Shown: one piece after another, positions 40,854 to 64,000 of the stretch
Layout of the letters: every line of letters begins with the position of its first letter
Position numbering within the stretch: the first letter of the stretch is position 1
Source of the DNA: Tridacna crocea
Lineage: Eukaryota; Mollusca; Bivalvia; Cardiida; Cardiidae
Length of the DNA stretch: 64,000 nt
Direction: 5' to 3'
Assembly: GCA_943736015.1 (NCBI GenBank)
Contig: OX031070.1
Span: 42,184,173-42,248,172 of the forward strand
Position numbers and translations under genes: made by a program
Notes under the pieces: model-generated
Told to the model about the DNA's origin: nothing
The model's database searches: none
What the model saw: only the letters and a program-made list of their open reading frames with translations

Positions 40854-40922
40854 TCATCTCCTTCCTCTCGGTTTACGTAAACTCTGCCCCGACCCAGAGA
40901 ATGCCTCAAATGCATCTTTTTC
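40854..40922 (-). CDS. UFD1: UFD1 last exon, SHP box 2 and stop
   Basis: Encodes [20 protein letters not shown], two arginines and TGA (40856-40854). The FSGSG box and basic C-terminus match human FSGEGQSLRKK. The preceding exon, 42109-42028 ([20 protein letters not shown]...), joins it in phase 0. Confidence 0.92.
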   Translation of the reverse strand, partial: EKDAFEAFSGSGQSLRKPRGRR

Positions 40923-43900: not shown

Positions 43901-46900
43901 AAAATTGTGTGTTAGAAGGATAAAATATCAAGTCAAAGGGCTTGAGGAGTTGAGGCAGAAAATACCAACCTTAAAACTGTTGTCAGGCTCTGCTTCCATA
44001 TCATGCTCCTGAAATGATTGAATGACAGGCTATATACAGGATCTTACACTCATGTTTGTGTACTATCAATTTTATCAAAGATGTTGACCGAGTGACCAAG
44101 TATGATGCCAGCTTTGATGAGTGTCAAATACATCAGTAAGTTTGATAAAAGTGACAATACAAGTACATAACATGAATGTGAGATTCTATTGTAGTTCAGT
44201 TTAAAATGTGTACACACAGAAGTAGAAAGCTCTTTGACATTTACGTCAAAAGTAGAATGAAACAGTTTCTAGAAAGGATATATCAAACTTTTTTGCATTT
44301 TTTTTTTAGCAATATTACTTGCTTCTCACTTACATGAAAATTAAAAACTTTCAAGGCATTTATGTTTTCACAAGAATATTGTCATTTTTCCATGAAATGG
44401 CATATGAATTCTGGCTCACGTTGTGGTTGGTTCCTCCAGCTTTTCGCATTCATGACTAAAAAATTACCAGAATCAGGACAAAAAAACAATAACACACTAG
44501 TGTAGTTTCAAAAATAAGTCATGGGTTCTATACACGGAAGGAGGAGGTTTTATGTGATATAAAATATTTCCTTCCTTATTAATATACTAAACTGTACACT
44601 CTTTACACAGAAAAATTCCAGACTTGTCCAAAGTAAAAGCTTTTGCTGACAGTGATTCAAATGTGGCTAAAAACATACAATTTGTTTTTGATACGCAATA
44701 AAAAATTGTAGGAAAAGGAGAAAATGCAGGTGGGAGAGGAATGAATCCTGCCGCAATGACTATCATCAATCCTCGGGAAAAAAAATGTCCGAGCCGGGGA
44801 TCGAACTACCCTGTGTTCTCAAGTCCTGTATGCTACTGACTGAGCAACTCGGGCTTGGCCATAAATTCTCTAAAAGAATTTGGCTAAGCAAAGCATCATA
44901 CCAGTGACTCCAGGACTACAAGACCAGTACATTATCAATTGATCTTCTGCAAAAGACAACAACTTACCTCTATTTTATCTTCTGATGAACTTTGTTGAGG
45001 CTCAGGTTCTTTGTATCCGACGGGAGGAGCAAAATCCACCTGTAAAGGGAAACATGATCATTAAACCTTTACCACTCAGTCCTAAGTTATAATGACCCTG
45101 AGGAAGACACCTCTTGAAAACATTGTTGGAAAAAGAGGAAATGCTGATAACCACCATTTCCCCCCCTTTTCCACCATGTTTTTCTACCCTTTCAGTCATA
45201 AATCTATAAAATTTCTCTTGAAAACATAACAGAAAAAGGAGAAAATGCTGGTAACCAGCATTTTCTTCTCTTTCTCAATGTTTTGAGAAGGCTCCTTTCT
45301 CAGGATCGTTAAAAGTCAGGATTGAGTAGTTAAGAGTTAGGTAGGGTCCAAATAACAAGATTTGTTTTTGAAAAAATTGAAAACATTGTGAGAAAAGAAG
45401 GAAATACTTTCAATTTGGGTGAGCAAAATACTACGCCATCAGTTAACAGGTTAGGGTAAACCCCTAATACTTACATTCATATCACATTCTATTATAGACA
45501 CAGCTTTACCAGGTTTTGTTTCTAACACTCTCAGTTCATATATCTGAAAAAAGAAAATTGTTTTTATTAAAAATTTTAGAATTTGCATTAGCAAAAAAAA
45601 AGTTTAACCCTTTACCACACAATGACGACTTTTTACCACCCTGAGTAAGAAGCCTTTTGAAAACAATTGTAGGAAAAGGAGAAAATGCTGGTAACCAGCA
45701 TTTTCTCCTTTTCCAACAATGTTCTCTATCCTATCAAAGAAAAATTATTCCATATGAGCCACATTAAAACTGTCATCAGCAAATGCTTTCAATTCGGACA
45801 GGTCTAAATTCTTGTCATGTGGTAAAGGGTTAAATGTGGGTAAGTACAATTTTTTTTCCATGAGGTAAAGGGTTAAAGAATTCAAGAAAAGTAAAGTTTA
45901 AATGCACTGGCATCTGTGATATGACTGAAGTAATGTTGAAATCAGACTTTTCCTTTTAACACATACTCCCAATTAACCAAGAAGCATTTTCTCCTTTTCC
46001 CACAATGTTTTCATAAGGCTTCTTTCACGGGTGTTGAAAGTCAAGATTGTGTGGTATTGGGTTAATGGGAGAGTTAGGGGCCACAGACCCTCAGAAACAA
46101 ACATGCAGTACAGATTAAACAAAACTAAAACGGGTGAGTAAGGAGAGATTTACCTACCTTGTCATTATATTTGAATTCGATGAGATCCTCACAAGTTAAA
46201 CAAGCAAAACTTCGTAGCGCATTTTCTAATCTGACAAAGTTAAGGATATCAAGAGAATGAATATTTCCTTTATCTGTTTATGCAAATACAGGACCAGTAT
46301 TCGCCAACCATTCTTTATTCTCTGTTTAATTCTCAAAACTTACCTAAATTTCAAAGTAATGCCAATTCTGATATGCTAAACTTTCAAAACCTTTGACAAG
46401 ACTATGAATAAACAGGAGATAATTTGATTGTATCTAATGAATTATCAAAACAGCAACTGTGTTATCGATCAATTAAAATCTGTGAAATGTTGAATCTAAA
46501 GTGAAATATAAGCTAGAATAAAACTGAAATAAACGCTCTTTCTCTTTGTATTCGACGTCATTTTCTGGTTAGCTTTTCAGGCATCACAACCGAGAAACCC
46601 CATTACTAAGGAGGGCGTGCCAAATTCGCGTTTATAGAAAGGTCAATTCCCTTGTTATTTCTGGATATATACTAAAGACTGGTATGCAGTAGGAATCAGA
46701 CATGGTTGTAGGACATGAAAGACTCTTTTCAACAGTCTAGAAGACATAAATGTAGTTCCTCATTTGTTCACATGTTCCCGATTTCATAAGCTCTGGTCTA
46801 GATCTGTGAAATGTTTTACCTCTCCCATATTAAACCATGCGCTTTGAATAAGAACTTAATCAAGGGCCGCCTGATTGCAAATACTACTCTTTACCAAACA

Positions 46901-49900
46901 ACAAAAATTTTGACAGGTCCAAAATGAAAGCACTTGCAGACAACAAATAAAACGTAACTCAAACACTAAAATTTGTAACCAGCAAGGAAGAAAACATTGT
47001 AGGACAAAGAGAAAATGCTGGTTACCAGCATTTTCTCCTTTACCCACACTGTTTTCAAAAGGCTTCGTTGTAAAAACCAGGAGTTGTTTGGGAAAGGGTT
47101 AACTACCAAGCCAAGCAGGGACCCTCCACCGATCCTAGATCAAATAAAAAAAAAAACTTCTAAAAATAAACAACAGAACAAAGGATACACTGCTTTTGGG
47201 TTAGATATATCTAAGAAATCTGTACTCTGAGGTTGAAACTTGGCAAATGTTGCAATAGACAGGGACACATTTTCTGCTTGAATCAGGTCACCCTCTGTCA
47301 GTAACAAGTTTTTCATCATCTGAAATGAAGTCGAACTTGTTATAGAAGCTGCCTGTACTAACTGTGCAGTCTGTTCCATACAATTCAAAGTTATTAACCC
47401 ATTATCACACAATCCCTACTTTTAATGCCCCTGAGAAAGAAGCCGTTTGAAAACACTGTGGGAAAAGGAGAAAATGCTGGTAACCAGCATTTTCTTCTTT
47501 TCCCACAGTGTTTTCTACCCTTCCCAGAACAAATTTCAATTTTTCAGTCACCTTTATTTTTTCGTCTGCAAATGCTTTCAATTTGAACAAGTCTAAAATT
47601 TTGTCGTGTGGTAAAGAGTTAAAACCCCGAGGAAGAAGCCTTTTTGAAAAACATTGTTAGAACCAGCATTATCGCTCCTTTTCGAAATGTTTTCTACCCT
47701 TTCAAAGAAAAGTTCCATGAAAATATCAAACATCAGGTCTCTCTCTATCGGTAAAAAGTCTTTCGTCATCTGAAATGAACCTGTTGAAATGGCAGCTTAT
47801 GTTAACTCTTTACATGGTGTCCATGGTCGTGAGGTATGGCGTCGGCCTCATAACCTAAAGGTCCTGATTTCGATACCCGGGAGCGGGCATCAACTTTGGG
47901 ATTTTTCATTGGCCAAAACATTTGGTGCGAGTAGTGGTGTAGTTCCCAAGACGCAGAATCAAGAGAGATTAGTATAAGACGTAAGAACTTGTTTCTCAAT
48001 CAATGTAAAATAAATATGTTTATACTAACTCTTTACCAAATGACAGAATTGACTACGCCAATTTGAATGCTTTTTGCAGATTATAAAATAAATGTGACTT
48101 AAAAATCTGAATATGTCTATGCATGGGTAGAAAACATTGTGGGAAAAGGAGAAAATGCTGGTAACCAGCATTTTCTCCTTTTTCCACAATGTTTTCAATC
48201 CAAGAGAGAAATCATTATTTGAGACAAATCCAGTTTGTAATCTGCAAATGCTCTGAATCAGCCAAGTACAAAGTTTTGTTGTTTCGTAAAGGGTTAAATG
48301 AACTAGATTGGATCAAAAGGCCACCTGCTATATGAAGTCATTTTTTTCCGTTTCTCTTGGATGGTCTTCGAATACAGGTTTGACTGTAGATTGCACATTA
48401 TATGTTCCACAGAACTTGTATTTTTGTTATTTGCTTGTGCACCTGCAGATCCATAAATTCCTTCTGCTTCTTTCCCTAGAACCAGGCAAACACATCCCAA
48501 GCCACTGGCTACTTGCCAACACTCTGTCTTAGCCAAGAGCTACTTTCATAGAATCTTTCCAAGCCACTAGCTGCTTTTCCATATTTTTTTCTAAGCCAAT
48601 GGCTGCTTTCAAACATATAAAGAAAATCCAAACCATGTCCAGTTGAGAGCATCGGCTGGATCTTATTGCAATTGTTGTGTTGTAGTCTGACCATGCATTT
48701 TAATGTGTAGATAATTTGATGTAGTCTGACCTCTTCTTCTGTGTATCTAATTGAACGTGTAGACATAGCCATGTTCTCTTCTGATTTTTAAATTAGCCCA
48801 AAACACAACAGCAATGACTTTCATCAATCCTTGGACCTAGTTCTGGCTGTGCTGAGGTCAGGACTTGCGCAGCCAGCATTACTAACATTGAAGGTTTCTT
48901 TCAAAACTACCAAACCTCTATTCTGAATAAGGAACAGTCATTACAGTTCATTTCATTCCTATGAACATGACACAAAAAAGTTCATGTCTACAATAAAAGT
49001 AAATTGAATGTGCTTCAAATTAGGATATTTTTGAAATTAGAGAAAACATTCTAGAAATAGACAAAATTTCTTGTTATCAGCATTTTCCTATGTTCTAACT
49101 ATGTTTCAGAATTTGCCTTTCTCCTAAAATAGACAAACACTTCAAGAGCAAGAATAAAATGAACTTTTATTTATGGACAATCAAGTTTAACTCATTACCA
49201 AATGACAATGTTTTAGGCTTGTCCAAATTGAAAGCATTTGCAGACAACAAAATACAAGTGACTGAAAATTTGAAATTTGTTTTTGTGAATGGTAGAAAAC
49301 ATTCTGAGAAAAGGAGAAAATGCTAGTTACCAGCATTTTCTTCTTTTCCCGCAATGTTTTCTAAAGGCTTCTTTCTCAGGGTCGTCAAAAGTAGGGATTG
49401 TGTGGTAATGGGTTAAATAAAACTTCAACAACCCCAAAATGATGGTAAAGGGTCTTTAAAAAAAAACATCATTCAAAATCACTTGCAATTTCTTACCCAG
49501 TACGGAATATAAATTCTGCCTTCATCAGCCACAAATTCCAGTACCCCACAATGTGTCTCTCTCTTTATCTTCTTATTGGTCAGTTTGAACAACATGGGAT
49601 ATTGAATATTTAAACGTGCTGTAAACAAAAAAGTAGGGTATTTCTAAATTTATTTTTGACAAAAATTTGGAAATGAAGTCCATGAAAGTAGGGAAAATCA
49701 TAATTCATAATGAACAAGCAATTTCGTTAAATTGATATCCCTCCCCCAAAAAATTTACTTGACCCCTGGAACTTAAAATTGTTCCCAGTCGGCCATTTTT
49801 CATTGAATTAAAAAATGAAAGAAAGTGTATCAGCAGAATGGGTTATTGAACACATGTATAAAGTTCACGAAAATCCATCCGATTGTATTGGAGATATTCT

Positions 49901-52900
49901 CCCAGATGGAGAGACAGATAGGAGGAAGGACGGACGGACATTGCCAAAACTATATCCCTCTGCCTCAGGCAGTGGATAATAATGGTATGATAAAGTAATA
50001 CAACTGAAAACATTATGGCAAAAAGAGGAATTCTTTATCATGTGGAATTATTCCTTCATTCAAAAAGCTTTTGAAAGGGGTCACCGTCTGCATACAGACA
50101 CACAAATTTACCCGAAGAGGGGATTTGGATTTAAAAAGAAGGTTGAGTACATGTATTGTAATAAGTTCTGAAATTTACTCTTTTACAGACAATGTAAGCA
50201 CAGACAAGTCCACATTAAATTCAGTTACAGACAATAAATAAAATGTGGCCCAAATGATAGGATTTGTCATTAAAATGTTGGTAAATATTGTGAGAAAAAG
50301 AGCAATTACTGATTAACATTTCTGCCTTTTCCCACAATGTTTTCTGTCCCTTCAAGGACTACTTTCACCATTTCAACCATCCTTGATATGTGGTCTGCAA
50401 ATTTGGACATGTTCGAAATTTTGTTGTTTGGTGAAATTTGTTTTGTGAATGGTAGAAAACATTGTGGGAAAAGGAGAAAATGATGGTTACCAGCATTTTC
50501 TCCTTTTCCCACAATGTTTTCAAAAGCCTTCTATTGTCTTTTATGACTGTTAAAACTTGGGATTGTATGGTAAAGCGGTAACCATCAACAGGCAAAGAAT
50601 AAGAGACAAAATAATTCAAAAACAATAAATTGCATGACAGACTATGAAACAGCCAGAAAAATTGACTTACTCAGTCTATCCAGGGCTGATGGAGGCATGA
50701 TAACTGTAAATATAAAAAATAAATTCTATATTAATTCTTTTACACTTAACTAAGAATGTTTCTATTTAACTAGGTTAAAAGCAAACAAAAGAGACAGTGA
50801 CCTGGCAACTTTTAGCCTGTCATCTGCGCATGTCATATTCTTCGAAGATTCGACTGTCTATTATGACGCATCACTAGCCCCGAAAGCGGGCAGACTGTAA
50901 TATTGCACTCTATAAAGTAGTAATGTAGAAAATAGCTTTTATCAATACGTTTGAGGAGAAATGAGACCTGCTTTAGCTCCATATTTCTCTAAACTGCTGA
51001 TCATAGCTAAGTGAATTGCACAAATTAGCCTTTTATTGAGTAAACGTTTATTTTAGTTAGAAATTCAAAGTAACTGTTGTCGTGTAGGAAGGTGGTTTGG
51101 TTCTGTACCCAGGATGCCCAAATTAGACAGATGAGTATCTATCGAATGCCATCTAGCGGGAGACAATGCTTTTAGCCTAGTCTTAAAACTTATTCTTCTG
51201 CCAGTGATTAACACTTGGACCAATAGAATAATAACAGATTTTCTTCGTCACAATAATTTTCATTCTTTCAAATGGTATCATTTAAATGCATTTGCAGCCA
51301 GTGTAAATCAAAATCAGACAGCAAAAATGTGCAGAAAAAAACCCTGACTTCTAATGACCCAGAGTAAGGAGGCTTTTGAAAACAAAAGATAGAAAATGCT
51401 GATAAACAGCAATCCTCCTTTTTCCACAAGGTTTTCTACTGTATCATGCACAATTTTTCTCAGTTGGACCACCCTATTTGTAGACCGTAAATGACTTAAA
51501 TTTAGACAAGTTTAAAAACTTTCATGTTTAGTAACTAGCCTGCAGATCACCAATTACCTCTTTATCAGACAACAAAATTTTACAGTTGTCTAAATAACTC
51601 TTTACCATAGAACAACGTTTTGAACTGGACCAAATTCAAACAACAAAATAAATTTTGCTAATATGATGATTTTCTGACTTTGATAGGGTAGAAAATATTG
51701 TGGGAAGAGGAGAAAATGCTGGTTACCAGCATTTTCTCCTTTTCCCACTATGTTTTCTATTGGGTCATTAAAAATCAGGATTGCGTGGTAAAGAGGTAAT
51801 AAATATTTGCTGACAAAAAATTAAAGGTCGCTCAAAGTTGTCTTTGATAGCCAGTTGGTATTTTCTCCTTTTCCCACAATGTTTTCAGCAGCAATCTTCT
51901 CCGGGGCTGTGAGAATATGAGCTTGTTTTGGACAGGGTTAATACATTGTACAGCAAATGACAGGAATTTGTTCATTTACACACATTCTCCTATTGCACCA
52001 ATATTTTCATAGTTGTCCAATACAAGATGTATGTTCAAAATAAAAAAAAGTTTGCTTACTTTTTCCACCCCTTTCCACATCCTCCCTGTCACCCAACATT
52101 GAGACAGAAAAACATCTGTAGGTCTCGCTAAAATGTCTTCCAGATACATCCGGGAACATGCGCCCAAACTGAAACTGAAAACCGGAAATAAACATTTTTT
52201 GTCTTGCAGGAGTTTTCACAAAATTGAGGAAAATGTAAAATCAAATAATCAGTGTTTAATTTGTTTATAAGGTTTGAACATTTATAAGGTTTGAAAGTAC
52301 AGATTTGCACAAAGGTAAGAATTTGATATTAACTAACATAACATTAATTTTTTTGTAAAGATTAATCATTTATCTAATGATCCATGCCCATTTTATTAGC
52401 CGTCATTAGAAATTTTGTCGCATAGAGGCGTTCGAAAAGATGCGGGTAAAATCGTATTTGTTTCAGATACTTTAAATGAAGGTTGGTCTGAAGGTGTATG
52501 CGAAGAACAGTATCAAAAGTAGCACTGGGGCAGACACCTTCAGACTGAAGGCAGGTGTCAACATGAAGTTAAATCATTCGTCTATCATTTCATGTCCGTT
52601 TTCTTAGGTGACAAGCAGATTCAAGACACATGAAGCAGATGAAAGATTTGACAGGTAAGATTTTGAAATTTCCAGATGGTGTTAAAGAAGGGCTGATGTG
52701 TAGGGATGTGGCAACCCAATCATAAAAATAACATCGGAGCAACCCTTCAGACCACAGGAATCTGACATTCTATAACCAAAATAAATGATAAAATATGGAA
52801 AAAAAAATCCCCCCCATAGATAATATATACACAAGGAGTGCAACGTCTCGATTGCTGGTGCGAGCACCCGACAGCCTTTCCGAACCAAAATCACCCACGA

Positions 52901-53907
52901 AACATTGATCATAATCTCCTTCAGCCTAGCCATAGACAAGACATTAATGTACCTGCGACATCCGGCGATACCTCAGTAGACACCTTTCATCCGGAGATAT
53001 CCGTCATGTTTTACAGCTCTATCAGGACATTTTGATTTATCCGGGTGGCCATTCGTTGACGTCACAAGAAGTGCAAGGAAGCATATTTTCGTATTACTTA
53101 TTGCTATTATTTTTTTCGATTTTAAGACATTTATGGACATCAAATGATACTAAAGATTCTAGAAAAATCTGTAGTATCATGTGATGTCCATAAGTATCTT
53201 AAAAACGAAAAAAATAATAGTAGAAAGTAATACGAAAATACGCTACCTGCTACTTTCTGTGATGTCAGCGAATGGCCACCCGGATAAATCAAAATGTTCT
53301 GATAGAGCTGTAAAACATGACGGATATCTCCGGTTGAAAGGTGTCTACTGAGGTATTGCCGGATGTCGCAGGTGCATTAATGTCTTGTCTATCGCTAGGC
53401 TGAAGGAGATTATGATCAATGTTTGTTTCGTGGGTGACTTTGGTTGGGAAAGGCTGTCGGGTGCTCGGCCCAGCAATCGAGACGTTGCACTCCTTGTGTT
53501 TATATTATATAGGGGGGGGATTTTTTTTCCATATTTTTTCATTTATTTTGGTTATAGAATGTCAGATTCCTGTGGTCAGACTGAAGGTAAAGCCATAGAG
53601 GCTTCTCAGGAGAAGAATGTTACTTCTCACATAAAAGCCTAAATATTCTAAGAAATAACCCAAAGTAAACTTTAAACCGATGATATTGGCTCAACGATAG
53701 TATCTATTAGTCAAATAAATTTCTGTCGGTCTCATTTTTGTTGCTGTCAAATAAGAACGCATTATCCGGTTTACCCATTATCCCACCCACAAAATGTGGC
53801 AGTTAAGAATAAAGAATTCTACATTAAAGCTACAGTGCGTTCTTTAGTCTGCAAGTTACATTAAACGACATACTTTACTGAAACTCGTAAAAGACTTTTC
53901 TTACCAT
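40854..53907 (-). CDS. UFD1: Ubiquitin recognition factor UFD1, complete
   Basis: Adaptor that, with NPL4, recruits ubiquitinated substrates to the p97/VCP unfoldase (ER-associated degradation; also removal of the CMG helicase from chromatin). Exons in transcript order: 53907-53905 (start codon only), 52174-52060, 50703-50671, 49618-49497, 47319-47189, 46230-46158, 45543-45475, 45039-44968, 44008-43970, 43171-43083, 42109-42028, 40922-40854. Total 897 nt, giving 298 residues and TGA; human UFD1 is 307. Domains: double-psi barrel Ub-binding UT3 domain ([56 protein letters not shown]), then the C-terminal region with two p97-binding SHP boxes, [11 protein letters not shown] and [10 protein letters not shown]. 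All junctions are GT-AG and in phase. The donor GTATCC after exon 5 is weak. Confidence 0.95.
40980..41327 (-). repeat. CCCCCGCAAAACGA-type repeat, full length
   Basis: Reverse copy with a C-run at ~41013-41028, ending TTTTGCGGGGGTAAAAT; in UFD1 intron 11. Confidence 0.78.
41633..41927. repeat. Foldback element with tripled arm
   Basis: Relative of 11843-12046. A 46-bp unit with GATTGGCTAAACCAAATGG occurs three times (41694-41831) against one complementary copy after it. Confidence 0.85.
42268..43005. mobile_element. Family A two-long-arm element with a retroelement insert
   Basis: Left piece to 42319, insert 42320-42770, remainder to TTAA 43002-43005. The right arm is again of the long type. 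Confidence 0.78.
42320..42770 (-). mobile_element. Penelope-like retroelement fragment
   Basis: 451-bp insert between 14-bp direct repeats TAAAAGTTGTTGTA (42306-42319 and 42771-42784), as left by retrotransposition. On the - strand 42399-42370 reads CCTGAAGAAGGC, a short loop, GCCGAAACG: the CUGANGA / stem II / GAAA pattern of the hammerhead ribozymes found in Penelope-like elements. No reverse transcriptase frame remains. Confidence 0.6.
43083..43171 (-). CDS. UFD1: UFD1 exon 10, SHP box 1
   Basis: Encodes [15 protein letters not shown]...GPPKR. FQGKG fits the F-x-G-x-G SHP box that docks on the p97 N domain. The first 12 nt of this exon and its acceptor form the terminal unit of the 32-bp tandem array 43160-43479. 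Confidence 0.9.
43160..43479. repeat. 32-bp tandem array, 10 units, containing a splice site
   Basis: Units start ACCTTGA(A/C)AT at 43160 and every 32 bp. Unit 1 spans the UFD1 exon 10 acceptor and its first 12 coding bases; units 2-9 carry CGG where the acceptor has CAG; unit 10 has CAG again. Confidence 0.95.
43671..43894 (-). mobile_element. Family A element, left end damaged
   Basis: Short arm CCCTGAGAAAGAAGCC, core GCTGGTAACCAGC, right GGTAAAGTGTTAG. A decayed piece with an A-run precedes it (43538-43670). Confidence 0.78.
44009..44595 (-). other. UFD1 intron 8, no recognised elements
   Basis: AT-rich; nothing conserved was seen. Confidence 0.5.
44596..44880. mobile_element. Family A left half joined to a tRNA-derived SINE
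   Basis: 44596-44730 is a left arm and half core. 44735-44880 on the - strand has GTTGCTCAGTCAGTAGCATA (A box) and GTTCGATCCCCGG (B box). Confidence 0.7.
45061..45342. mobile_element. Two partial family A elements
   Basis: 45061-45200 (short arm and diverged core, -) and 45216-45342 (core and short arm, +), starting 22 bp from UFD1 exon 8. Confidence 0.7.
45604..45833 (-). mobile_element. Family A TTAA element
   Basis: TTAACCCTTTACC to GGTAAAGGGTTAA; core intact. Confidence 0.86.
45981..46066 (+). mobile_element. Family A right half
   Basis: Begins at the hairpin centre (AGCATTTTCTCC) and ends TTGGGTTAA: a break exactly at the palindrome axis. Confidence 0.72.
46231..46880 (-). other. UFD1 intron 5, one foldback fragment
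   Basis: 46291-46400 resembles one arm of the 11843 foldback (GTATTCGCCAACCATTCTT). The rest is unassigned. Confidence 0.5.
46881..47102 (+). mobile_element. Family A TTAA element
   Basis: CTCTTTACCAAACAAC to TTTGGGAAAGGGTTAA. Confidence 0.82.
47394..47715 (-). mobile_element. Family A element plus a fragment
   Basis: 47394-47622 is complete (TTAACCCATTATC to GGTAAAGAGTTAA). 47620-47715 is a decayed short arm and core. Confidence 0.8.
47805..47965 (+). mobile_element. tRNA-derived SINE
   Basis: GTCGTGAGGTATGGCGTCGG (A box region) and GATTTCGATACCCGGGAGCG (B box region); no clean cloverleaf. Confidence 0.55.
48025..48297. mobile_element. Family A variant with two long arms
   Basis: CTAACTCTTTACCAAATGAC to TTTCGTAAAGGGTTAA, 273 bp; core intact. 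Confidence 0.78.
48298..49186 (-). other. UFD1 intron 4, mostly unassigned
   Basis: Three loose repeats of (A/C)AAGCCA(C/A)TGGCTGCTTTC-like sequence near 48500-48610, a SINE-like scrap at 48810-48870 and a decayed family A core at 49000-49130. Confidence 0.5.
49187..49416 (+). mobile_element. Family A TTAA element
   Basis: CATTACC/GGTAATG ends; 81 bp from UFD1 exon 4. Confidence 0.87.
49725..49990. repeat. Dispersed repeat with GGACGGACGGAC
   Basis: Contains CCATCCGATTGTATTGGAGA and GGAAGGACGGACGGACATTG. The flanking sequence is otherwise plain intron. Confidence 0.45.
50180..50582. mobile_element. Composite of two family A elements
   Basis: 50180-50432 has two long arms with a broken core. 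50433-50582 continues as an intact core plus short arm, joined inside the long arm (GGTGAAATTTGTTTTGTGAA). Confidence 0.7.
50704..51334 (-). other. UFD1 intron 2, no recognised elements
   Basis: Nothing assigned. Confidence 0.45.
51335..51941. mobile_element. Cluster of partial family A elements
   Basis: 51335-51536 (decayed, -), 51594-51799 (+, intact core) and 51861-51941 (right half, +). Confidence 0.7.
52060..53907 (-). CDS. UFD1: UFD1 exons 1-2: start codon split from the rest
   Basis: Exon 1 contributes only ATG (53907-53905), followed directly by GTAAGA. Exon 2 (52174-52060) continues [12 protein letters not shown], matching the MF(S/Q)F start of known UFD1 proteins. The exon 2 acceptor is a tandem TTTCAGTTTCAG, so a version lacking two residues (F-Q) could also be made. 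An internal Met (FGRM) is an alternative start. Intron 1 carries the giant inverted repeat 52744-53587. Confidence 0.85.
52744..53587. repeat. ~845-bp inverted repeat in UFD1 intron 1
   Basis: Arms of ~420 bp fold around ~53165. For example ATTTTGATTTATCCGGGTGG at 53028 pairs with CCACCCGGATAAATCAAAAT at 53277, and the outer ends pair at CCTTCAG/CTGAAGG. Few mismatches by eye. No reading frame of interest; probably a foldback DNA element. Confidence 0.9.
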
Positions 53908-54219
53908 ATTTGGATGCCTTTATAGACGGATCTTTAGGATTTGTTAACTCACGATCGACAAAAATGACAACGACAATCTGGTACTACTTTCGGGTAAAAT
54001 GTTGTTGGATATTTTCTTTAAAAGACGGAATCCAGCCCATGTACCGGATGTTGACTGACCTGCGTTAAAAATAGAAATTGCAACAGTTTAAACGAAACGC
54101 AAAGTGATTGGTTCACAATCCTGGAATTTCCCCAATCTTGACCAATGGAAACTTGCGTTGTTCACCCCTTGTTTGGCTAATTCAGCGCCATAAATTGAAC
54201 CTACAACAAATGTCACAAC
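53908..54219. promoter_or_regulatory. Bidirectional UFD1/CDC45 promoter
   Basis: The only 312 bp between the divergent start codons. An inverted CCAAT box TGATTGGT (54105-54112) and a direct one ACCAATGG (54141-54148) lie ~30 bp apart. GCGCCATA (54185-54192, reverse TATGGCGC) resembles an E2F site, as expected for a replication gene. I see no TATA box and no repeat insertion here. Motif calls are by eye. Confidence 0.75.
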
Positions 54220-57200
54220 ATGTTTGTTAAAGATTTCATCAAAGAATTTTATTCTGTCATTCAAAACCAGGTAACATTTATGCTATGGATACTTAGAGGC
54301 ACTCAAATAAATCGTTATTGATTCACTAGAACCTTTAGATGTCTGATGATGGAATTTGGCCAGAACTGGCTTTGTATTTTTTTTTTTCAAAAACTTTTAT
54401 ACCCCTTATGGCTTATGACACGATCCAGAGTTTTAATAAGAAACAAGTAGGAAATGGCTTTTCATAATGCTAAGAAACATTGAAAGAGGTATCAAATTAA
54501 TGGGAGACCAAAGGGCACTTTGATTCACATGATTTGGTTGACACTTTACCAAACAGCAAGATTTTAGACCTGCAGTAAATCAAGGAAGAAAAGTGCCCGA
54601 AGTGGGACTCGAACCCACGACTCCCAAAATAATAATACTGCAGCTCTACCAACTGAGCTAGCGGGGCATCTAATCATGAGTCCACCCAATGTCATGTATC
54701 ACAACACTCCTCCCCCTCCTGATTTTTTGAGAGTATTAACCAACTCTGCCAGTGTTGCCTCCCGCATTCACCACTTGTCCTTGTTGCCAAATGCAATGAA
54801 GTAAATGAAGGGAGAAAAGTGTGCCCAACATGTGACTTGAACCCACAACCCCTGAAACACTAGTACTGCAGCTGCACCAACCAAGGTAGCCAGGCATCTG
54901 GTCATGATTGAGTCCACCCAACGTCGTATATCACAACAGACTAAAGGATTTGCAGAAACCTTTGAACCGTTTGAAGGGTTGCTCTGATGTTATTTTTGTG
55001 GTTGTGTCTCTGCAACCCTTAATTCTTGAATACCATCAGGAAATTACAAAATTCTATCAGTCATTTTTCAGTCGGTTTAATATATAGTGTTTATTCTAGA
55101 GCGGAATGATAGGGTGAGCCACCTTCAGTGTCTCGGCTTCGTCTCATCAAGCTTGCACAGTCACAAAAGTCGCCATAAATTTCTTCCAACCTGTCCATAT
55201 TCATGAAATGTGGGAAATCTAAGACTGCTTATCCTCTATCAACTTTTTCAGTAAACCCTTTACCCCATAAGGCATTTCTATGGTATCCCTAATTGACCCT
55301 ATATAACAGCAAGGATGAAGCTGTTTCTTATGTATATGACACTCTTTGATATTGTAGAAAATAATGTGATAAAGGTGAAATTGCTTGTCATGAGCAATTT
55401 CACCTTTTGCCACAATGTTTTCCAAAGGCTCCTACAAGCAATGCGTAGAAATGAGTATCTATGGAATAAAGGGTTAAGACAGGACAGCAGGGTGTTATGA
55501 TCCGTATCTGTCACAAGCTAACCATCCCTTTATCCCTCGAAACCCAGACCTTTTCCCACTCAGGTACTTTAGCGTCTATGCTACCAAGCAGATTAAAGAC
55601 ACATTATTAATGTCTTTAGTCTGCTTGTCAGACAGCATAGTACAGCTAATGCCCAAATTTGAAAAAAATCGATGTATGGTCTCATTATTGAGACTAATTG
55701 TCAGCTGTGAAAATGGACATGAATTGATGCATAAATGATTTGACTTCATGTTGTTGGCGATTGAAGTGCAAGGTTTTCATTGAATTTTTTGTAATTTTTG
55801 TGTATAAACACACCTAGTTAACCCATTACCACACAATCCCTATTTTTGATGGCCCTGAGAGAGAAGCCTCTAAAAAACATTGTTGGAAAGGAGAAAATGC
55901 TGTTAGCCAGCATTTTCTCCTTTTCCCACAATGTTTTCAACCCTTCACAAAACAAATTTCAATCGTATGCAAATGCCTTCAATTTGGACAAGCCTAAAAT
56001 ATTGTTGTTTGGTAAAGACACTCATTAAAAATTCATGCATGCTCAGCATGGTCAATTTCATTTGATTTTCTTTACCCAGGTCGTTAAAACTCATGCATTT
56101 TCCATAAAGAGTTAACCCGTTAACCTCTTAACACAATCCGGTTTTAATAACCCTGAAAATATTAGCATCCTTCTTTACCCATTTTTTCAAGAATCTTCTT
56201 ACCTTTGCATTGTTAAAACTCATAGATGCAGTTATTTGATAAAGTATTAAATTAACCCTTTACCACACAATGCCGACTTTTGACGCTCCTGGAAAAGAAG
56301 CCTTTTGAAAACATTGTGGGAAAAAGAGAAAATGCTGGTAACCAGCATTTTCTCCTTTTCCCACAATGCTTTCTACTCTGTTAAAGATAAATTACACCAT
56401 TTTAGCCTCACTTTTAAAAATTGTCATCCGTAAATGCGTTCAATTTGGACAAGGCTAAAATTTTATCGTCCGGTAAAGGGTTAATGTTTATATTTTGCTA
56501 ATTTCAGAGAGTGCTGATTCTTGTTGCCTTTGATGTGGATGCTCTTTGTGCTTGTAAGATACTTCAGGTAATATATGAGCGTTGCTCTAAGAAAAGGGGC
56601 TTAACCCTTTCCCAAACGGCAAATTTTGGACCAGACCAAATCGAAAGCATTTTGCAAATGACAAATTAACAGTTGCTAAAAAGATTATTTTTCTATATAG
56701 TAGGGTAGAAAACATTGTGGGAAAAGGAGAAAATGCTGGTTACCAGCATTTTCTCCTTTTCCCACAATGTTTTCAAAAGGCTTCTATTCCTGACCCGTAA
56801 AAACCAGGGATTATTTGGGAAAGGGTGAAAGGTGGCCCTTCAGAGTTTGGGTCGAAAATTTTACAAAAATGCTAAAAAATCATCCATATACTCCCAAAGC
56901 CTTTTAATTTCTGTTAATAAAATCCCAGTAGTCGAAAACCATCCGACAACACGAGAAATTAGAGATTTACTCTGGCCCTAGTTGACACCAACGGGAGACA
57001 TTTTTAGATTATCAATTTTCTTATTTACATACAGGAATACACAGTCGAAGTTTCAAAAATTGTGTCCGAAGAAGACATTATGGAAAATAATTATTATACA
57101 TGTTTGTTATGTAATGGAATTTAAGCGTTATAAGTCACATGCCTTGGCACAGTAAATAAAGATTACTGAAAAAATTAATATTACTTGATACATGTAATGG

Positions 57201-60200
57201 ATGATTTAGCAGTCACTTTACATATTTTTCAGACTCTTTTCCAATGTGATCAGATTCTCTACACAATTATCCCAGTATCGGGGAAAGATGACCTAGAAAG
57301 AGCCTATGTGGAAAATTCAGAAGGGGTAAACAATTTTATCATAGGAGGGAGAAAAAAAGAAATATTACAACTGAAAACTTTTCATTGGCTGTTAGAAAGA
57401 TACAGTATTTTGATTGTTTCATTATGTGTTTTCAACATGTGTGTAACTGTGGATGGCATTAGATTGATCAATCAGGATAAGAATACATCAAAATATACAT
57501 GTAGTTAGATACAGAGTGGCATCACCCATGATTTATGTTGTCTACGTAGAGAATATTTGATTTTTACCGAGAAAGATCGAAATTTATTTCATCATGTGAA
57601 CATTATCGTTAATATTTTCATGAGTGGTGCAGCCACGAGTGAAAATAATATCAATGATGTTAATGGGATAAAATAATTGCATCCTACTTCCAATCAGAAT
57701 TTGTGCACTTGCAATTTTCACTATGAGTGGTTGATACTTGACAATTGACAGGGATAAATAGAAATGTCTATAAATTTACTTGGTGGCTTAATGATCAACA
57801 AGCTGGAATTGCTTAACCCATTACCACACAATCCCAACTTTTGACAACCCTGTGAAAGAATCCTTTAGAAAACATTGTGGGAAAAGGAGAAAATGCTGGT
57901 AACCAGTATTTTCTCCTTTTCCCACAATGTTTTCTACCCTTTACAAAACAAATTTCAAATTTTCAGTCACTTTTATTTTGTCGTCTGCAAATGCTTTCGA
58001 TTTGGACAAACCTAAAATTTTGTCGTCTGGTAATGAGTTAAATAGCTTAAAATTGTTGACTATGCAGATCATTGTGTAGTCTGATCTTGGATCTACACTT
58101 TCAGCTTCTTGGAGAAAATCCTGAATAGCAGCAGTTTGTCTGTTTTTCCTTTAACTCTTTACCAAACGACAAAATTATAGACTGGTCCAAATTGAAAGCA
58201 TTTGCAGACGACAAATTAGAAATGGCTCAAATGGCAGAATTTGTCCTTGATAGAGTAGAAAACATTGTGGGAAAAGGAGAAAATGCTGGTTACCAGCATT
58301 TTCTCCTTTTCCCACAATGTTTTCTAAAGGTTTCTTTTTCAGGGTCGTTAAAAGTCGGGGTTGTGTGGTAAAGAGTTAACTCAAAGAGTGTTTCATCAAT
58401 TCATTGCTCTAAAGATTAATTCTTTACCACTCTACAAAATTTTAGACTAATCTAATTTGAAAGCATCTGCAGATAACACGAAATTGTGGAAACATTTTTG
58501 GAAAAGGAGGAAATGCTCTTTACCAACATTTTTTCTTTTTTCCACAATGTTTTCAATAGACTTGCTGCTTCTCGATAGGGTTGTTAAAATTGTGGATTGT
58601 GTGGTAAAGAGTTGATCTAACATTGGTATACTGGTAAATTTGTTCTCATGTTATACATGTAATTGTTTTCAGGTAAAGCATGTTGTACTGATTAATTGCG
58701 GTGCCAATCTTGATATAGTGGAAACGTTACAGCCGGAGGAATACATCAAATTTTATATATGTGACAGGTACATATGGAATATTATACTGTAGTGACTTCT
58801 GTTGCGTGGATTTGATTAGAGTTATGTGAGATAATTTTTTACCACATAAATCCCCTTGTTTTCAATGTAATAGATCTACAGCCATTATGAATTTTCTTGT
58901 CTCAGACATGTGTGACATAAGAAAATACTGCTGTGTTTGGTCAACACGCTCTAATTAACTCTTTACCACACGAGAAAATTTTAGACTGGTCCAAATTAAG
59001 CATCTGCAGACAACAAAAGAAAGGTGACTGAAAAATTGAAATTTGTTCTGGGAAGGGTAGAAAACATTGTGGGAAAAGGAGAAAATGCTGGTTACCAGCA
59101 TTTTCTCCTTTTCCCACAATGTTTTCTAAAGGCTTCTTTCTCAGGGGTGTCAAAAGTAGGGATTGTGTGGTAATGGGTTATACACTTCATTTCTAAAGCA
59201 TAGCTGACCTAGGTTCCTGGAGGAAATTAATGATCAAAACTATCAATCATGATAAAGTTGTTAATTTGATCACATTGTGATTCCAAACAAAATCAATACA
59301 GTTTCTTCGAAATAACTTCTGTTTGTAAAGTACCTGTCAAAGAGGCATATAAGCTTCATGTACGATATGCTATAGAAAAAAAAAAAAGGGTGGGGGGGGA
59401 GGGGAAATGTCCTTTGCATTTTGGTTAACCTGTTAGACTCTGAAGACTAACTCAAGGACCTTTTGTGGATTGTGAAGATCAAGATCAAACTGCACAGAAT
59501 GTGGTAGAAAGGTTTCTACCTCAGGGTCGTCAAAAGTCGTCATTGTGTGGTAAAGGATTAACTTGCAATTTATTTTGCTTTTATTTAGAAGGTTAGGGCT
59601 TAATTTTTCAAGTGATGAATAATGTGGAAAAAGATGCTTTTGATCTACCATCACATGTGCAACTGCTCCTAGCTCAGCAATGTTTTCTAAAACTATGACT
59701 GGCTGGTGGGGGTATTTATACAATAATAATGTGATTGTTATTTTTCTGTTTCAGCCATAGACCAGTTGATGTACATAATGTATATAATGGAGTACAAGTT
59801 AAATTATTAATGAGATCATCAGAGTTATCTGTCCCTGCTTATGATGACGTTTTTAGAGACGATGAAGATGATGAGGTTTGTTTTCATGAAGTTTGTAATT
59901 ATATCGAATGTTTTCGGGGGTATGCTGGCATCCGCCTGTCTGTTGGTGTGACCGTCTGTGTGTTCGCCTGTGTACAAAATACCAGTAATTTTGTGTCGCA
60001 AACTTCTACAGTTTTCCTTCAAATGTATAGAAACATTGAACATATATTGATCATATATTGAAGATTTGCAAGACGCAATTTTTTAAGTCTCAGCTCTTCC
60101 TGGTTGAGGAATTATCTCCCCTTGAACTTGACACTTTTTTCTGTCTAAGTGCTGGCGGGGGAATTAACCCTTCACCAAACAATCCCTGGTTTTTACGGCC

Positions 60201-63200
60201 CTGAGATAGAAGCCTTTTGAAAACATTGTGGGAAAAGGAGAAAATGCTGGTAACCAGCATTTTCTCCTTTTCCCACAATGTTTTCCACCATGCTGGAAAC
60301 AAATATCAATTTTTGGGTTATGTTTATTTTGTTGTCTGCAAGTGCCCTCAATTTGGACTGGTCCAAAATTTTGTCGTTTTGGAAAGGGTTAGGTCACATT
60401 CAGTGACAGCTCTAGTTTTCACTACTTTATGTAACTAGCTTTTTAAGCCGATCAGACTATGTAAACTCTTTACCACACAACAAAATTTAACGTTCGTCCA
60501 AATTAAAAGCATCTACAGACAACAAATTCATCATGGCTCAAATGGTGAGGTTTGTCTTTGACAGGGATAGAAAACATTGTGGAAAAAGGAGAAAATTCCT
60601 AGTAGCAATATGAAAAAAAAAAATATGTTGGTAGAATGTATAATACTAACCTTGAATGGCTAAACCATTCAATTTAGCCTATTAGAAAATCTGTTACACT
60701 AAAAATTTGAAGTAGTTCATTAGAGGTCAAGCTAAGAATGTGATTATGGATAATAAGTGAATATAGAAATAGGGTTAATTTCATGGTTATTTTTATGTAG
60801 TCTGGTGAGGATTCTGGGAATGATAGTGATACATCAGAACGTTCTGGTAAACGGAAAAGGTTTGATGATGCAGCAATTGAGCGGAGAATTGAGAGGAGAA
60901 AATGGGACGAAAACAGGTATTTATTTATGCGTATATTTCTCAACATTTTTTTTTGTCTTACCCTAGACTGCTTTTGAAAACATTGGCCGAGCCCTGGTTG
61001 CCCAGTTGGTAGCATAAGGGACTTGCAAACGGGGGTTGCCGGTCGAATCCCTGGTGTGGCCAATTTCTTTGACTGACCATTGCTTTGACGGCGGGTATGT
61101 GGGAAAGCAGCCAATGGCTTAGAATAAATATTGTACAAGTACTAGTAAAAAGACATCCAGGAAAGTATGGATAGGTGCACTGGCCATGGTGATATAACTG
61201 AAATAATTTTGAAATTGACATCAAACAATTCAGCAAATGAGGACTTTACTTCCATCAATACATGGGTCCTTTGTTCATATTGTTAACTCTTTTCCAACTA
61301 ATCCTTTTAACAATGCCAAGGGAATAGAGATCTAAAAAGAAAATTGGTGGAAAAGCAGTGTTTTTAACCCTTTCAAGAAAAAAAAACTCGCCTCTTGAAT
61401 CCTATTCAATATATGTCATCTGCACTCGATGAGACAATTCTAATGAGTACTCACAACATAGGATTTTGTGGAGAATAATTAACTTTTTCAAGTTTGAAAT
61501 CAAAATCACTTCCTCTTTCTGCAGCTCTGTGATAAATTCACCTTTAATAATAGTAACCCTTATCCTGCTAAATGAATGAACTCTTTCCCAAACGACAAAA
61601 TTTTGGACTCTTCCAAACTGAAAGAGATTGCAGACGACAATTTAAACTTGATGATAATGACTGAAAGTTCTCCAAAAGGGTAGAAAACACTGTGGGAAAA
61701 GGAGAAATTGCTCGTTACGAGCAATTTCTCCTTTTCCCACAGTGTTTTCATTAGATTATATATTGCAGACATGTAAAAACCAGGGCTTGTTTGGGAAAGG
61801 GTTAATAGTTAAGATGATAGTAAAGACCCAAAAAGTTTTTTAACTCATTACCACACAATCCCTACTTTTGACGCCCCTGAGAGAGAAGCCTTTAGAAAAC
61901 ATTGAGGGAAAAGAAGAAAATTCTGGTAACCAGCATTTTCTCCTTTTCCCACAATGTTTTCCACCCTGCACAAAACAGATTTCAAATTTTCAGTCACTTT
62001 TATTTTGTCGTATGTAAATGCTTTTGATTTGGACAAGCCTAAAATATTGTCGTTTGGTAAATGAGTTAAACATATTTTTTAGAGGTGCCTATCTTCTTAT
62101 TGGACAGTGTATATTCAAGATCAGACTGCACAGAACATGCAATCTGATCTTGATCTACACTATCTGCAAAGGTCAGTGGGTAGCCAAACTATTCCAGATC
62201 CTATTATCAAATGTAAATAATCTGTTTTTTTTTTTAATTGCAGAAACAAGGTTCTGTTTGATTATTCACAGTTTTCAGCATATGGCACATCGGTAAGTTA
62301 AGATTGTAAATTTTGTCACTCTGAGACAAAATCCAACTGTATACAAATAGGATTTTTTAGATGTCAGTATGGAATAACAATATGGGAAAAGAAGGAATTG
62401 CTTGTTAAAAGCAAGTACTCCAAGTAATGGTCTTTTTAATCTAATTACTCTCTCTGCTTCAACCCTTTACCAAACAATACCAGGTTTTTACGACCCTGAG
62501 ATATAGGCCTTTTGAAAACATTGTGGGAAAAGGAGAAAATGCTGGTAACCAGCATTTTCTCCTTTTCCCACAATGTTTTCTACCCTGCTTGAAACAAATG
62601 TCATTTTGTCAGTTACAGTTGTTTTGTTGTGTGCAAGTGCTTCCAATTTGGACTAGTCTGAAATTTTGTTGTGTGGTAAAGGATTAATGAGATGACTTTA
62701 TCGTATCCTTCACCATCCATCATGAAGTTTAAGACTAGGGGCACTATATTTCAATTTTATACAGAACTTATTACTGCTTTTAATTGTATAACAGTTACAT
62801 CGCTGCAACATAGCTTTGTAACTCTGTAACATGCAAAAAGGGGCATTCGGACATTATTATATTGTTATTTTTCCACCTTCAATTAAGATGAGTCGAAAAT
62901 GTTGTTGTGTGGTAGAGAGTTTATCATTTCTTTCATACTATGTTTTCAGTCTGCTCTTTTGATGTTTGAATTAGCGTGGAAAATGTCAAAGGACTCGAAT
63001 GACTTATTGTGGCTTGGTATCATTGGTGTAACAGAACAGTATATTCACTATAAAACATCACGGGAAAAGTATATTGAAGACGTAATGGCCTTGCAATCCC
63101 ATGTCTCAAGATTAAATCACAGGTAAAAAACCAAGGATATCTTTCTGTGTTGAGCTGACCGACCATCTAAGATTTAGAACTAATTCTAAAATTCATTCTC

Positions 63201-64000
63201 AGCTATTTGATTGGCTTACACAAACCATCTTGGCCAATCAGATTGTTTGTTCTGGATATGAGGGGGGTATACTGGAATCTGTCAGTGTGTCCGTCCGTCC
63301 ATCTATCTCTTCATCCGTCCCTGTATCCATCTATGTGTCCAAATAATTGCCTGTTTTCTGTCAAAGTGCTGACGGGAGTATTGAGTCACATTCCATGACA
63401 GCTCTAGTTGAATATGGGTCATTATTTCAATATCATCTCCATTGACTGCTAAACAGGGGAGTGAATTGTAGACTTGCCCATATTGAAAGTATTTGCAGAC
63501 AAAATAAATTTGACGCAATTATTGAAATTTGTTTCAGGAGGGGTAGAAAAAAATTGTCGGCAAAAGAGAATTCATAAAATTATACATAAGTATACTGACC
63601 TCTACAATATGAATTACAGTGAGGTTATATTTCATTGTCGGACTTATATATGTGCCATGCTCTAGCAAAATGGGATTAAATGTATCATTGTGAAACATTG
63701 CAGCTACCAAGTAAATCATAGCGTAATTACTGATCTGTAAATCAATTTTGCCTAACAAATAAAACCTGAGGTGAAATGGTCCTTGGACATGAAGAAAATA
63801 AATCAAAAGCACAAACTTTCGACCCAGGTCAGCCTGCGCAAACTGCGCAGGCTGACCTGGGTTGATACTTTTTGCAGATGTCTTAAATCCCTTTTTCCCA
63901 GTGCATGGGTCATAAGCAGTACTGACTTTATGAAAATCCTTTTGTTACAGAGATGATGAAGATATAATATCGATAAACTGTTTAAAGATCATGTATGAGG
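54220..64000 (+). CDS. CDC45: CDC45 replication factor, N-terminal part (cut by window end)
   Basis: Subunit of the CMG (CDC45-MCM-GINS) replicative helicase, nuclear. Exons: 54220-54270, 56508-56567, 57233-57325, 58673-58767, 59755-59875, 60801-60916, 62244-62292, 62950-63122 and 63951 to the window end; 269 residues here of ~570 expected. [11 protein letters not shown] starts at the first [22 protein letters not shown] is the degenerate DHH/RecJ-like motif. [22 protein letters not shown], the acidic [18 protein letters not shown] stretch and LFDYSQF...GTSSA follow in CDC45 order. [20 protein letters not shown] and [11 protein letters not shown] are also family blocks. All junctions are GT-AG and in phase. 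Confidence 0.96.
54271..54584 (+). other. Start of CDC45 intron 1
   Basis: Only a family A left-end scrap (54544-54580) is recognised. Confidence 0.5.
54585..54925 (-). mobile_element. Two tRNA-derived SINE heads in tandem
   Basis: The first (54665-54590, -) has GCTAGCTCAGTTGGTAGAGC (D arm) and GTGGGTTCGAGTCCCAC (perfect T arm), but the acceptor stem has mismatches. The second (~54900-54820) is a diverged copy. Both precede GTCCACCCAA-like sequence. Located in CDC45 intron 1. Confidence 0.7.
55251..55477 (+). mobile_element. Family B TTAA element
   Basis: GTAAACCCTTTACCCCATAAG to GGAATAAAGGGTTAA; core GGTGAAATTGCTTGTCATGA. Confidence 0.85.
55566..55643. repeat. 78-bp hairpin
   Basis: GTACTTTAGCGTCTATGCTA to TAGCATAGTAC... 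ends pair, and AAGCAGATTAAAGACA pairs with TGTCTTTAGTCTGCTT. Confidence 0.75.
55818..56017 (-). mobile_element. Family A element, shortened long arm
   Basis: TTAACCCATTACC start; the long arm lacks ~25 bp and the right TTAA is lost. Confidence 0.75.
56117..56484 (-). mobile_element. Decayed plus intact family A elements
   Basis: 56117-56256 lost its core. 56252-56484 is complete and ends 24 bp before CDC45 exon 2. Confidence 0.82.
56601..56829 (+). mobile_element. Family A TTAA element
   Basis: TTAACCCTTTCCCAAACGGC to TTTGGGAAAGGGTGAA; starts 34 bp after CDC45 exon 2. Confidence 0.85.
57549..57680. repeat. Palindromic foldback, diverged
   Basis: Relative of 9500-9657: AAAGATCGAAATTTATTTCATC and CACGAGTGAAAAT. 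Confidence 0.65.
57813..58041 (-). mobile_element. Family A TTAA element
   Basis: 229 bp, CATTACC/GGTAATG ends. Confidence 0.87.
58151..58379 (+). mobile_element. Family A TTAA element
   Basis: 229 bp, close to consensus: TTAACTCTTTACCAAACGAC to GTGGTAAAGAGTTAA, core perfect. Confidence 0.88.
58416..58615 (+). mobile_element. Family A element, diverged
   Basis: TTAATTCTTTACCACTC to GGTAAAGAGTTGA; ~30 bp missing from the long arm. Ends 57 bp before the CDC45 exon at 58673. Confidence 0.78.
58954..59181 (+). mobile_element. Family A TTAA element
   Basis: TTAACTCTTTACCACACGAG to GGTAATGGGTTAT; the termini do not match each other (CTTT against AATG), unusual in this set. Confidence 0.85.
59182..59754 (+). 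other. CDC45 intron, one short-arm fragment
   Basis: An A/G-rich run at 59375-59405 and a short-arm end at 59500-59562 (GTCATTGTGTGGTAAAGGAT). Confidence 0.5.
59898..60420 (+). repeat. CCCCCGCAAAACGA-type repeat split by a family A insertion
   Basis: Head at GTTTTCGGGGGTATGCTGG, CTGT-poor body, tail broken at GGCGGGGGAATTAA by the element 60164-60392, then GTCACATTCAGTGACAGCTC resumes. Confidence 0.82.
60164..60392 (-). mobile_element. Family A TTAA element inside another repeat
   Basis: TTAACCCTTCACCAAACAAT to GGAAAGGGTTAG; core perfect. Confidence 0.88.
60463..60610 (+). mobile_element. Family A left half
   Basis: Stops in the left core arm (GGAGAAAATTCC). Confidence 0.68.
60801..60916 (+). 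CDS. CDC45: CDC45 acidic/basic linker exon
   Basis: Encodes [20 protein letters not shown], then [18 protein letters not shown]: an acidic serine-rich run followed by a KRKR basic cluster. In vertebrates this disordered loop protrudes from the RecJ-like fold (family knowledge). It is the most divergent part of the protein. Confidence 0.92.
60988..61240 (+). mobile_element. tRNA-derived SINE
   Basis: TTGCCCAGTTGGTAGCATAA (A box) and GGTCGAATCCC (B box), then AAAGCAGCCAATGGCTTAGA and a 3' body ending GACATCAAACAATTC. Starts 72 bp after the CDC45 exon ending at 60916. Confidence 0.72.
61577..61805 (+). mobile_element. Family C TTAA element
   Basis: 229 bp; perfect core GGAGAAATTGCTCGTTACGA. 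CTTTCCC/GGGAAAG ends. A decayed family A piece precedes it (61283-61460). Confidence 0.86.
61840..62068 (-). mobile_element. Family A TTAA element
   Basis: TTAACTCATTACC to GTAAATGAGTTAA. Confidence 0.85.
62459..62687 (-). mobile_element. Family A TTAA element
   Basis: TCAACCCTTTACCAAACAAT to GGTAAAGGATTAA; core perfect. A decayed core scrap is at 62350-62420. Confidence 0.86.
63260..63412 (+). repeat. CCCCCGCAAAACGA-type repeat, internally deleted
   Basis: GGGGGGTATACTGGAATCTG, then a CCGT/CCAT-rich run, then GAGTCACATTCCATGACAGC. Confidence 0.75.
63460..63565 (+). mobile_element. Family A left arm fragment
   Basis: TAGACTTGCCCATATTGAAAG...GGGGTAGAAAA; the core is destroyed. Confidence 0.6.
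63821..63863. repeat. Short perfect hairpin
   Basis: CCCAGGTCAGCCTGCGCA and TGCGCAGGCTGACCTGGG pair exactly across a 3-base loop; part of the GCTCTGTGAAAAGG repeat type. Confidence 0.85.

Follow-up and report, generated by a model that had tools for sequence, protein, structure and literature searches.

UFD1 and CDC45 lie back to back in the genome of the bivalve Tridacna crocea, UFD1 on the minus strand and CDC45 on the plus strand, with exactly 312 bp between their start codons. This spacer is probably an ancestral bidirectional promoter, kept because its breakage would harm two essential genes. The pair was studied in a window of 64 kb (C15:42184173-42248172), whose numbering is used below, and searches covered the whole genome of 1,048,827,098 bases in 31 contigs. 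The background for motif, CpG and 16-mer statistics was the 164 kb around the locus, with some counts made on the 64-kb window only. The initial annotation had placed the two genes head to head over 312 bp, and this was confirmed by splice-consistent gene models and by the positions of the start codons, the one of UFD1 being the likely one. The two are protein-coding neighbours read from opposite strands with their 5' ends facing, as expected of a bidirectional promoter; the definition also sets a limit of 1 kb between transcription starts, and the two start codons are 312 bp apart. The features of the locus are collected in Table 1.

Table 1. Features of the UFD1-CDC45 locus, in window numbering.
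Feature	Position	Strand	Basis or remark
UFD1 gene, 11 coding exons found	40854..53907 (stop at 40854)	-	PDB and Pfam matches
UFD1 start codon, inferred; last three bases of exon 1, abutting donor GTAAGA	53905..53907	-	In frame with exon 2
Spacer between UFD1 and CDC45 start codons, putative shared divergent promoter	53908..54219	.	One genome match, no local repeats
NF-Y type CCAAT site (RRCCAATSR), putative	54105..54113	-	Pattern match
Third CCAAT pentamer, outside RRCCAATSR	54132..54136	+	Pattern match
NF-Y type CCAAT site (RRCCAATSR), putative	54140..54148	+	35 bp from the 54105 site and opposed to it
GCGCCA core, earlier called E2F-like	54185..54190	+	Fuller E2F patterns unmatched
Upstream ATG opening a 6-codon frame that overlaps the CDC45 ATG	54210..54230	+	Reading-frame inspection
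CDC45 gene	54220..64000, on to about 76834 (by eye)	+	Seven exons placed in window
CDC45 coding exon 1, 17 residues	54220..54270	+	ATG at 54220

The seven CDC45 exons span 54220-63122, with GT at the donor and AG at the acceptor sites; spliced together they give a protein of 236 aa that matched CDC45 in PDB (4.6e-89) and in Pfam (5.8e-49). Joining the UFD1 exons gave a protein of 283 aa that matched UFD1 in PDB (E 8.9e-109) and the Pfam families UFD1_N1 (2.7e-41) and UFD1_N2 (7.1e-37). Pattern searches did not recover a short CDC45 exon that the alignment implies between 60917 and 62949, nor a short UFD1 exon between 43171 and 44968. Both genes look single-copy within the limits of the searches. 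The UFD1_N1 profile matched one place in the genome, at the UFD1-CDC45 locus. Of five matches to the CDC45 family, two passed the cut-off, both at this locus; the other three (C1, C5 and C8) fell below it, two of these three with internal stops. Viral contigs and contigs of prokaryote genomes, scanned for possible contamination with animal DNA, yielded no confirmed UFD1 relative. The short upstream frame that runs into the start of CDC45 could reduce CDC45 translation if transcription begins upstream of the ATG of that frame.

The start of UFD1 is likely at 53907, although this is not proven. Exon 2 follows a TTTCAG acceptor, and the junction reads ATG/TTT GGG CGC ATG TTC (the slash marking the splice). 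An ATG directly followed by GTRAG occurs only once on the minus strand of 52168-54500 (at 53907), about 0.09 occurrences being expected by chance on one strand of that interval, and 12 times on both strands of the 164 kb. The predicted N terminus, MFGRMFPDV, is similar to human MFSFNMFDHP; the PDB chain in the alignment begins only at MFDHP. If exon 1 were non-coding and lay elsewhere, translation could start from the ATG of exon 2, which would change the distance between the start codons.

The human genes are the same two in the same divergent orientation. In 2001 a cis-acting sequence common to the two human genes was reportedly described. An excerpt of PMC2887419 gives human UFD1L-CDC45L, at 22q11.2, a bidirectional promoter region overlapped by a CpG island, in agreement with the match to the human divergent pair claimed in the initial annotation. 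With gene identity taken from the PDB and Pfam matches, UFD1-CDC45 would be a conserved pair, divergent also in a distant lineage. The chance of a given pair being both adjacent and divergent is about 2e-5, a rough figure that assumes 20,000-40,000 genes. Five other human 22q11.2 genes were looked for in the genome, HIRA, TANGO2, MED15, MRPL40 and ESS2 (gene list from PMC4487986). Three of them are on the contig of the window, C15: HIRA at 25.11 Mb, TANGO2 at 22.20 Mb and MED15 at 35.47 Mb, the last placed by one match (3.2e-4) over the family cut-off. MRPL40 is on C6 and ESS2 on C14. C15 makes up 4.3% of the genome, and the probability of finding genes there by chance is p = 0.010 for at least two of four and about 7e-4, calculated by hand, for at least three of five. 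Given how improbable it is that the two genes met again by chance, and with three of the five other genes on C15, the linkage very probably reflects common descent, in line with the conservation first proposed. Separate formation of the pair in the human and T. crocea lineages is extremely improbable in view of the figure of about 2e-5, and the sharing of C15 by HIRA, TANGO2 and MED15 fits descent. As the host is a mollusc, the arrangement would be older than the protostome-deuterostome split.

A conserved 22q11.2 block around the pair was ruled out by the myosin-Ic-like gene beyond UFD1, by HIRA at C15:25.1 Mb and by MRPL40 on C6. The gene beyond UFD1 differs from that in human: it is a plus-strand myosin-I gene, convergent with UFD1, for which one exon was tested (1.6e-32). 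Its exons extend over 5363-36147, as judged by eye apart from the tested exon. Human 22q11.2 homologues are described as scattered across every one of the five chromosomes of the fly and the five autosomes of the worm, the places of UFD1 and CDC45 not being stated in the excerpt (PMC4487986). Among the open-access papers listed by the literature searches, none with a statement on UFD1-CDC45 linkage in invertebrates was seen. In extracts of two further sources, a 22q11.2 review gives a shared promoter for TRMT2A-RANBP1 and none for UFD1L-CDC45 (PMC6554986), and PMC8497571 has nothing on a UFD1-CDC45 promoter.

The spacer contains no local repeats, as counted by 14-mers in 64 kb and by 16-mers in 164 kb. 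In the genome search (1.05 Gb), which ignores simple repeats and very common words, it matched only itself, at a single place, so the initial claim of no inserted repeat held both locally and genome-wide. A run of 799 bp (53578-54376) is devoid of any 16-mer recurring in the 164 kb and is the tenth longest such run there. Among 6369 overlapping 312-bp segments of the 64 kb, 11.8% had no repeated 16-mer and 23.3% had less than 30 bp of them. The companion claim, that almost every other 300-bp stretch carries a repeat, was therefore roughly right; since 11.8% of the segments are equally clean, the lack of repeats in the spacer is real, yet common to about one segment in eight or nine.

Several repeats were observed in the introns on both sides. 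A foldback element occupies 52747-53580 in UFD1 intron 1, with arms at 52747-53158 and 53166-53580 that are 92-94% complementary and 7 nt apart; its near end is some 325 bp away from the UFD1 ATG, where the repeat-free run opens. CDC45 intron 1 holds a tRNA-like sequence on the minus strand at 54593-54679 (ARAGORN, undefined anticodon) with a second copy, 76% alike, at 54821-54907, and this looks like a tRNA-derived SINE. In addition, an abundant interspersed repeat, whose copies often lie as inverted pairs, was seen at 44935-46150 and 56250-57000 among other places. One of its frames encodes 22 residues, and by eye it has many intron copies and none in the spacer.

The closeness of the two genes could also be that of bystanders, slow rearrangement keeping a close pair together while two separate promoters, with no shared element, serve them. 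The presence of three of the five other 22q11.2 genes on C15 points to slow exchange between chromosomes, and no spacer motif has been shown to be common with human. However, the distance of HIRA, TANGO2 and MED15 from the pair is 7 to 20 Mb (HIRA 17 Mb), while UFD1 and CDC45 stay within 312 bp, and the absence of repeats from the spacer in a repeat-rich region also argues against this explanation, tempered by the frequency of equally clean segments. On balance it was judged unlikely.

NF-Y promoters typically carry at least two CCAAT boxes that have NF-Y flanks and are spaced by about 30 bp. Three CCAAT pentamers were found in the spacer (54107 minus, 54132 plus and 54142 plus), and two of them fit RRCCAATSR. 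These two putative NF-Y sites, at 54105 on the minus and 54140 on the plus strand, have the flanks and, at 35 bp, roughly the spacing of the rule. They correspond to the two opposed CCAAT boxes that had been claimed. At least two RRCCAATSR sites occur in 1.4% of 312-bp segments of the 164 kb and at least three CCAAT pentamers in 2.3%, and seven further RRCCAATSR pairs within 60 bp were counted in the same 164 kb. The opposed pair is uncommon, not extraordinary, and the motif evidence is suggestive only, because the motif was sought after the initial annotation had named it.

Cell-cycle promoters were assessed with the E2F consensus and the CHR element. The E2F-like site claimed earlier was reduced to the GCGCCA core at 54185, a hexamer expected 0.027 times per 312 bp; TTTSSCGC, TTSGCGC, SGCGCSAA, TTYGAA and TTTGAA were absent from both strands of the spacer. 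TTTAAA, a variant of the CHR element, is present at 54017 and 54087. Assignment to the cell-cycle class (E2F, CDE/CHR) was rejected, GCGCCA standing alone in the spacer. No usefully placed TATAAA was seen: one, at 53919-53924 (minus), is 12 bp from the UFD1 ATG, too near for it to position a start upstream of that ATG. Spacer G+C is 0.389 and the CpG observed/expected ratio 1.01, a value reached in 9.7% of 312-bp segments of the 164 kb and in 20% of low-repeat segments. A vertebrate-type CpG-island promoter was dropped as a candidate, since the ratio was reached in 3.8% of segments in the 64 kb alone, but in 9.7% in the 164 kb. Thus, whereas the human UFD1L-CDC45L region has a CpG island, the T. 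crocea spacer is 39% G+C with unremarkable CpG. DNA secondary structure predicted for the spacer was that of an ordinary fold (z 0.72).

The pair might alternatively be held together by function, if CDC45 and UFD1 had to be co-produced in proliferating cells under NF-Y/E2F control. The idea of a link through helicase turnover is attractive because p97-UFD1-NPL4 dismantles CMG, and this biochemistry, raised in the initial annotation, stands: the complex takes apart ubiquitylated CMG, according to an excerpt of PMC9377798. The two opposed NF-Y type sites, of a kind seen in so few local segments, also speak for it. As a cause of the linkage, however, it fared poorly. Of 73 human tissues, UFD1L is reported in 71 but CDC45L in only 11 (PMC2887419), a difference in breadth that disfavours tight co-regulation, and a human-mouse study states that functional relatedness of the partners is excluded as a preserving force (PMC3403606). 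The spacer also contains neither a full E2F pattern nor TTTGAA. Co-production as the reason for the linkage is accordingly held to be improbable. The more specific proposal that an ancient shared promoter couples CDC45 and UFD1 output, so that capacity for helicase assembly and disassembly would move together and dosage coupling would resist separation of the genes, is quite improbable.

Two pairs that are divergent in human, HSPD1-HSPE1 (bidirectional) and HIRA-MRPL40, served as a small control set. HSPD1-HSPE1 has kept its divergence in T. crocea (C14:5226112-5233834), HSPE1 being on the minus strand and HSPD1, with its start at C14:5233834, on the plus strand. The two genes resemble UFD1-CDC45 in orientation, but the exons found are about 7.5 kb apart; the first exon of HSPE1 was not located. 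HIRA and MRPL40 are split (C15 vs C6).

Short divergent spacers kept over deep time have been described elsewhere. As excerpted, a study of amphioxus reports bidirectional promoters at 25% of neighbouring protein-coding genes, enriched in housekeeping functions, and 372 putatively ancestral ones, most of them lost in vertebrates (PMC6292497). UFD1-CDC45 is like this ancestral set in being a divergent coding pair with a short spacer that would have been kept over deep time; the amphioxus set was compiled from mapped transcription starts and a comparison of chordates. UFD1 and CDC45 do not appear in the main text of that article (PMC6292497). For the sponge Amphimedon, a partial text states that almost a third of genes seem to be bidirectionally arranged (PMC4773876). 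The divergent-pair arrangement is already known, and UFD1-CDC45 in a mollusc is a good further example of it, not a novel type.

A homeodomain search of the same genome found 41 matches, of which eleven form a single cluster on C6 (34662974-36283264), all on the plus strand and two partial. The best match continues beyond its homeodomain as NNIPKLCGPDR, in which KLCGP is close to the Lox5 peptide KLTGP. The cluster fits a complete Hox cluster of a lophotrochozoan, extending over 1.6 Mb; such features point to a spiralian, and a count of eleven would suit a mollusc. A molluscan haemocyanin search yielded no match and is uninformative, and a myosin II that looked non-muscle-like by eye is not diagnostic of the phylum. 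Post1 is inverted in limpet and oyster, according to part of PMC7566022. That inversion was not seen in the C6 cluster, where all eleven places are on one strand, which does not suit a simple mollusc picture.

Returning to the ancestral bidirectional promoter as the probable reading of the spacer, UFD1 and CDC45 would already have been divergent neighbours before the human and T. crocea lineages parted, and both lineages would have retained the layout. Opposed NF-Y sites are able to keep a region open both ways. One short nucleosome-poor region, kept open by NF-Y at the two opposed CCAAT boxes, may bear two core promoters, with CDC45 transcription predicted to start no more than tens of bases from the CDC45 ATG, and UFD1 transcription nearer the opposite end. 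Each gene would retain its own core promoter, level and tuning. Any insertion, deletion or break in the spacer would hit two essential genes, so that selection would keep it short and repeat-free amid repeats; co-regulation is unnecessary to this explanation, because the harm to both genes from loss of the spacer suffices for its retention. Shared promoter activity, NF-Y binding, the start positions and the reason for retention are all putative. The divergence of HSPD1-HSPE1 in T. crocea counts in favour of this reading. Counting against it are the lack of a full E2F pattern, of a well-placed TATAAA and of CpG enrichment, the split of HIRA-MRPL40, the 17 Mb between HIRA and the pair, and a neighbour beyond UFD1 that is not from 22q11.2.

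A pair from the human 22q11.2 deletion region thus occurs in the same divergent layout in a mollusc, with three more 22q11.2 genes on its contig, and this opens the question of what holds such gene pairs together over very long times. The spacer, at 312 bp, is small enough to be tested whole in a reporter. The deletion in DiGeorge syndrome takes in the human pair, and a very old shared promoter, if true, would bear on the reading of regulatory variants there.
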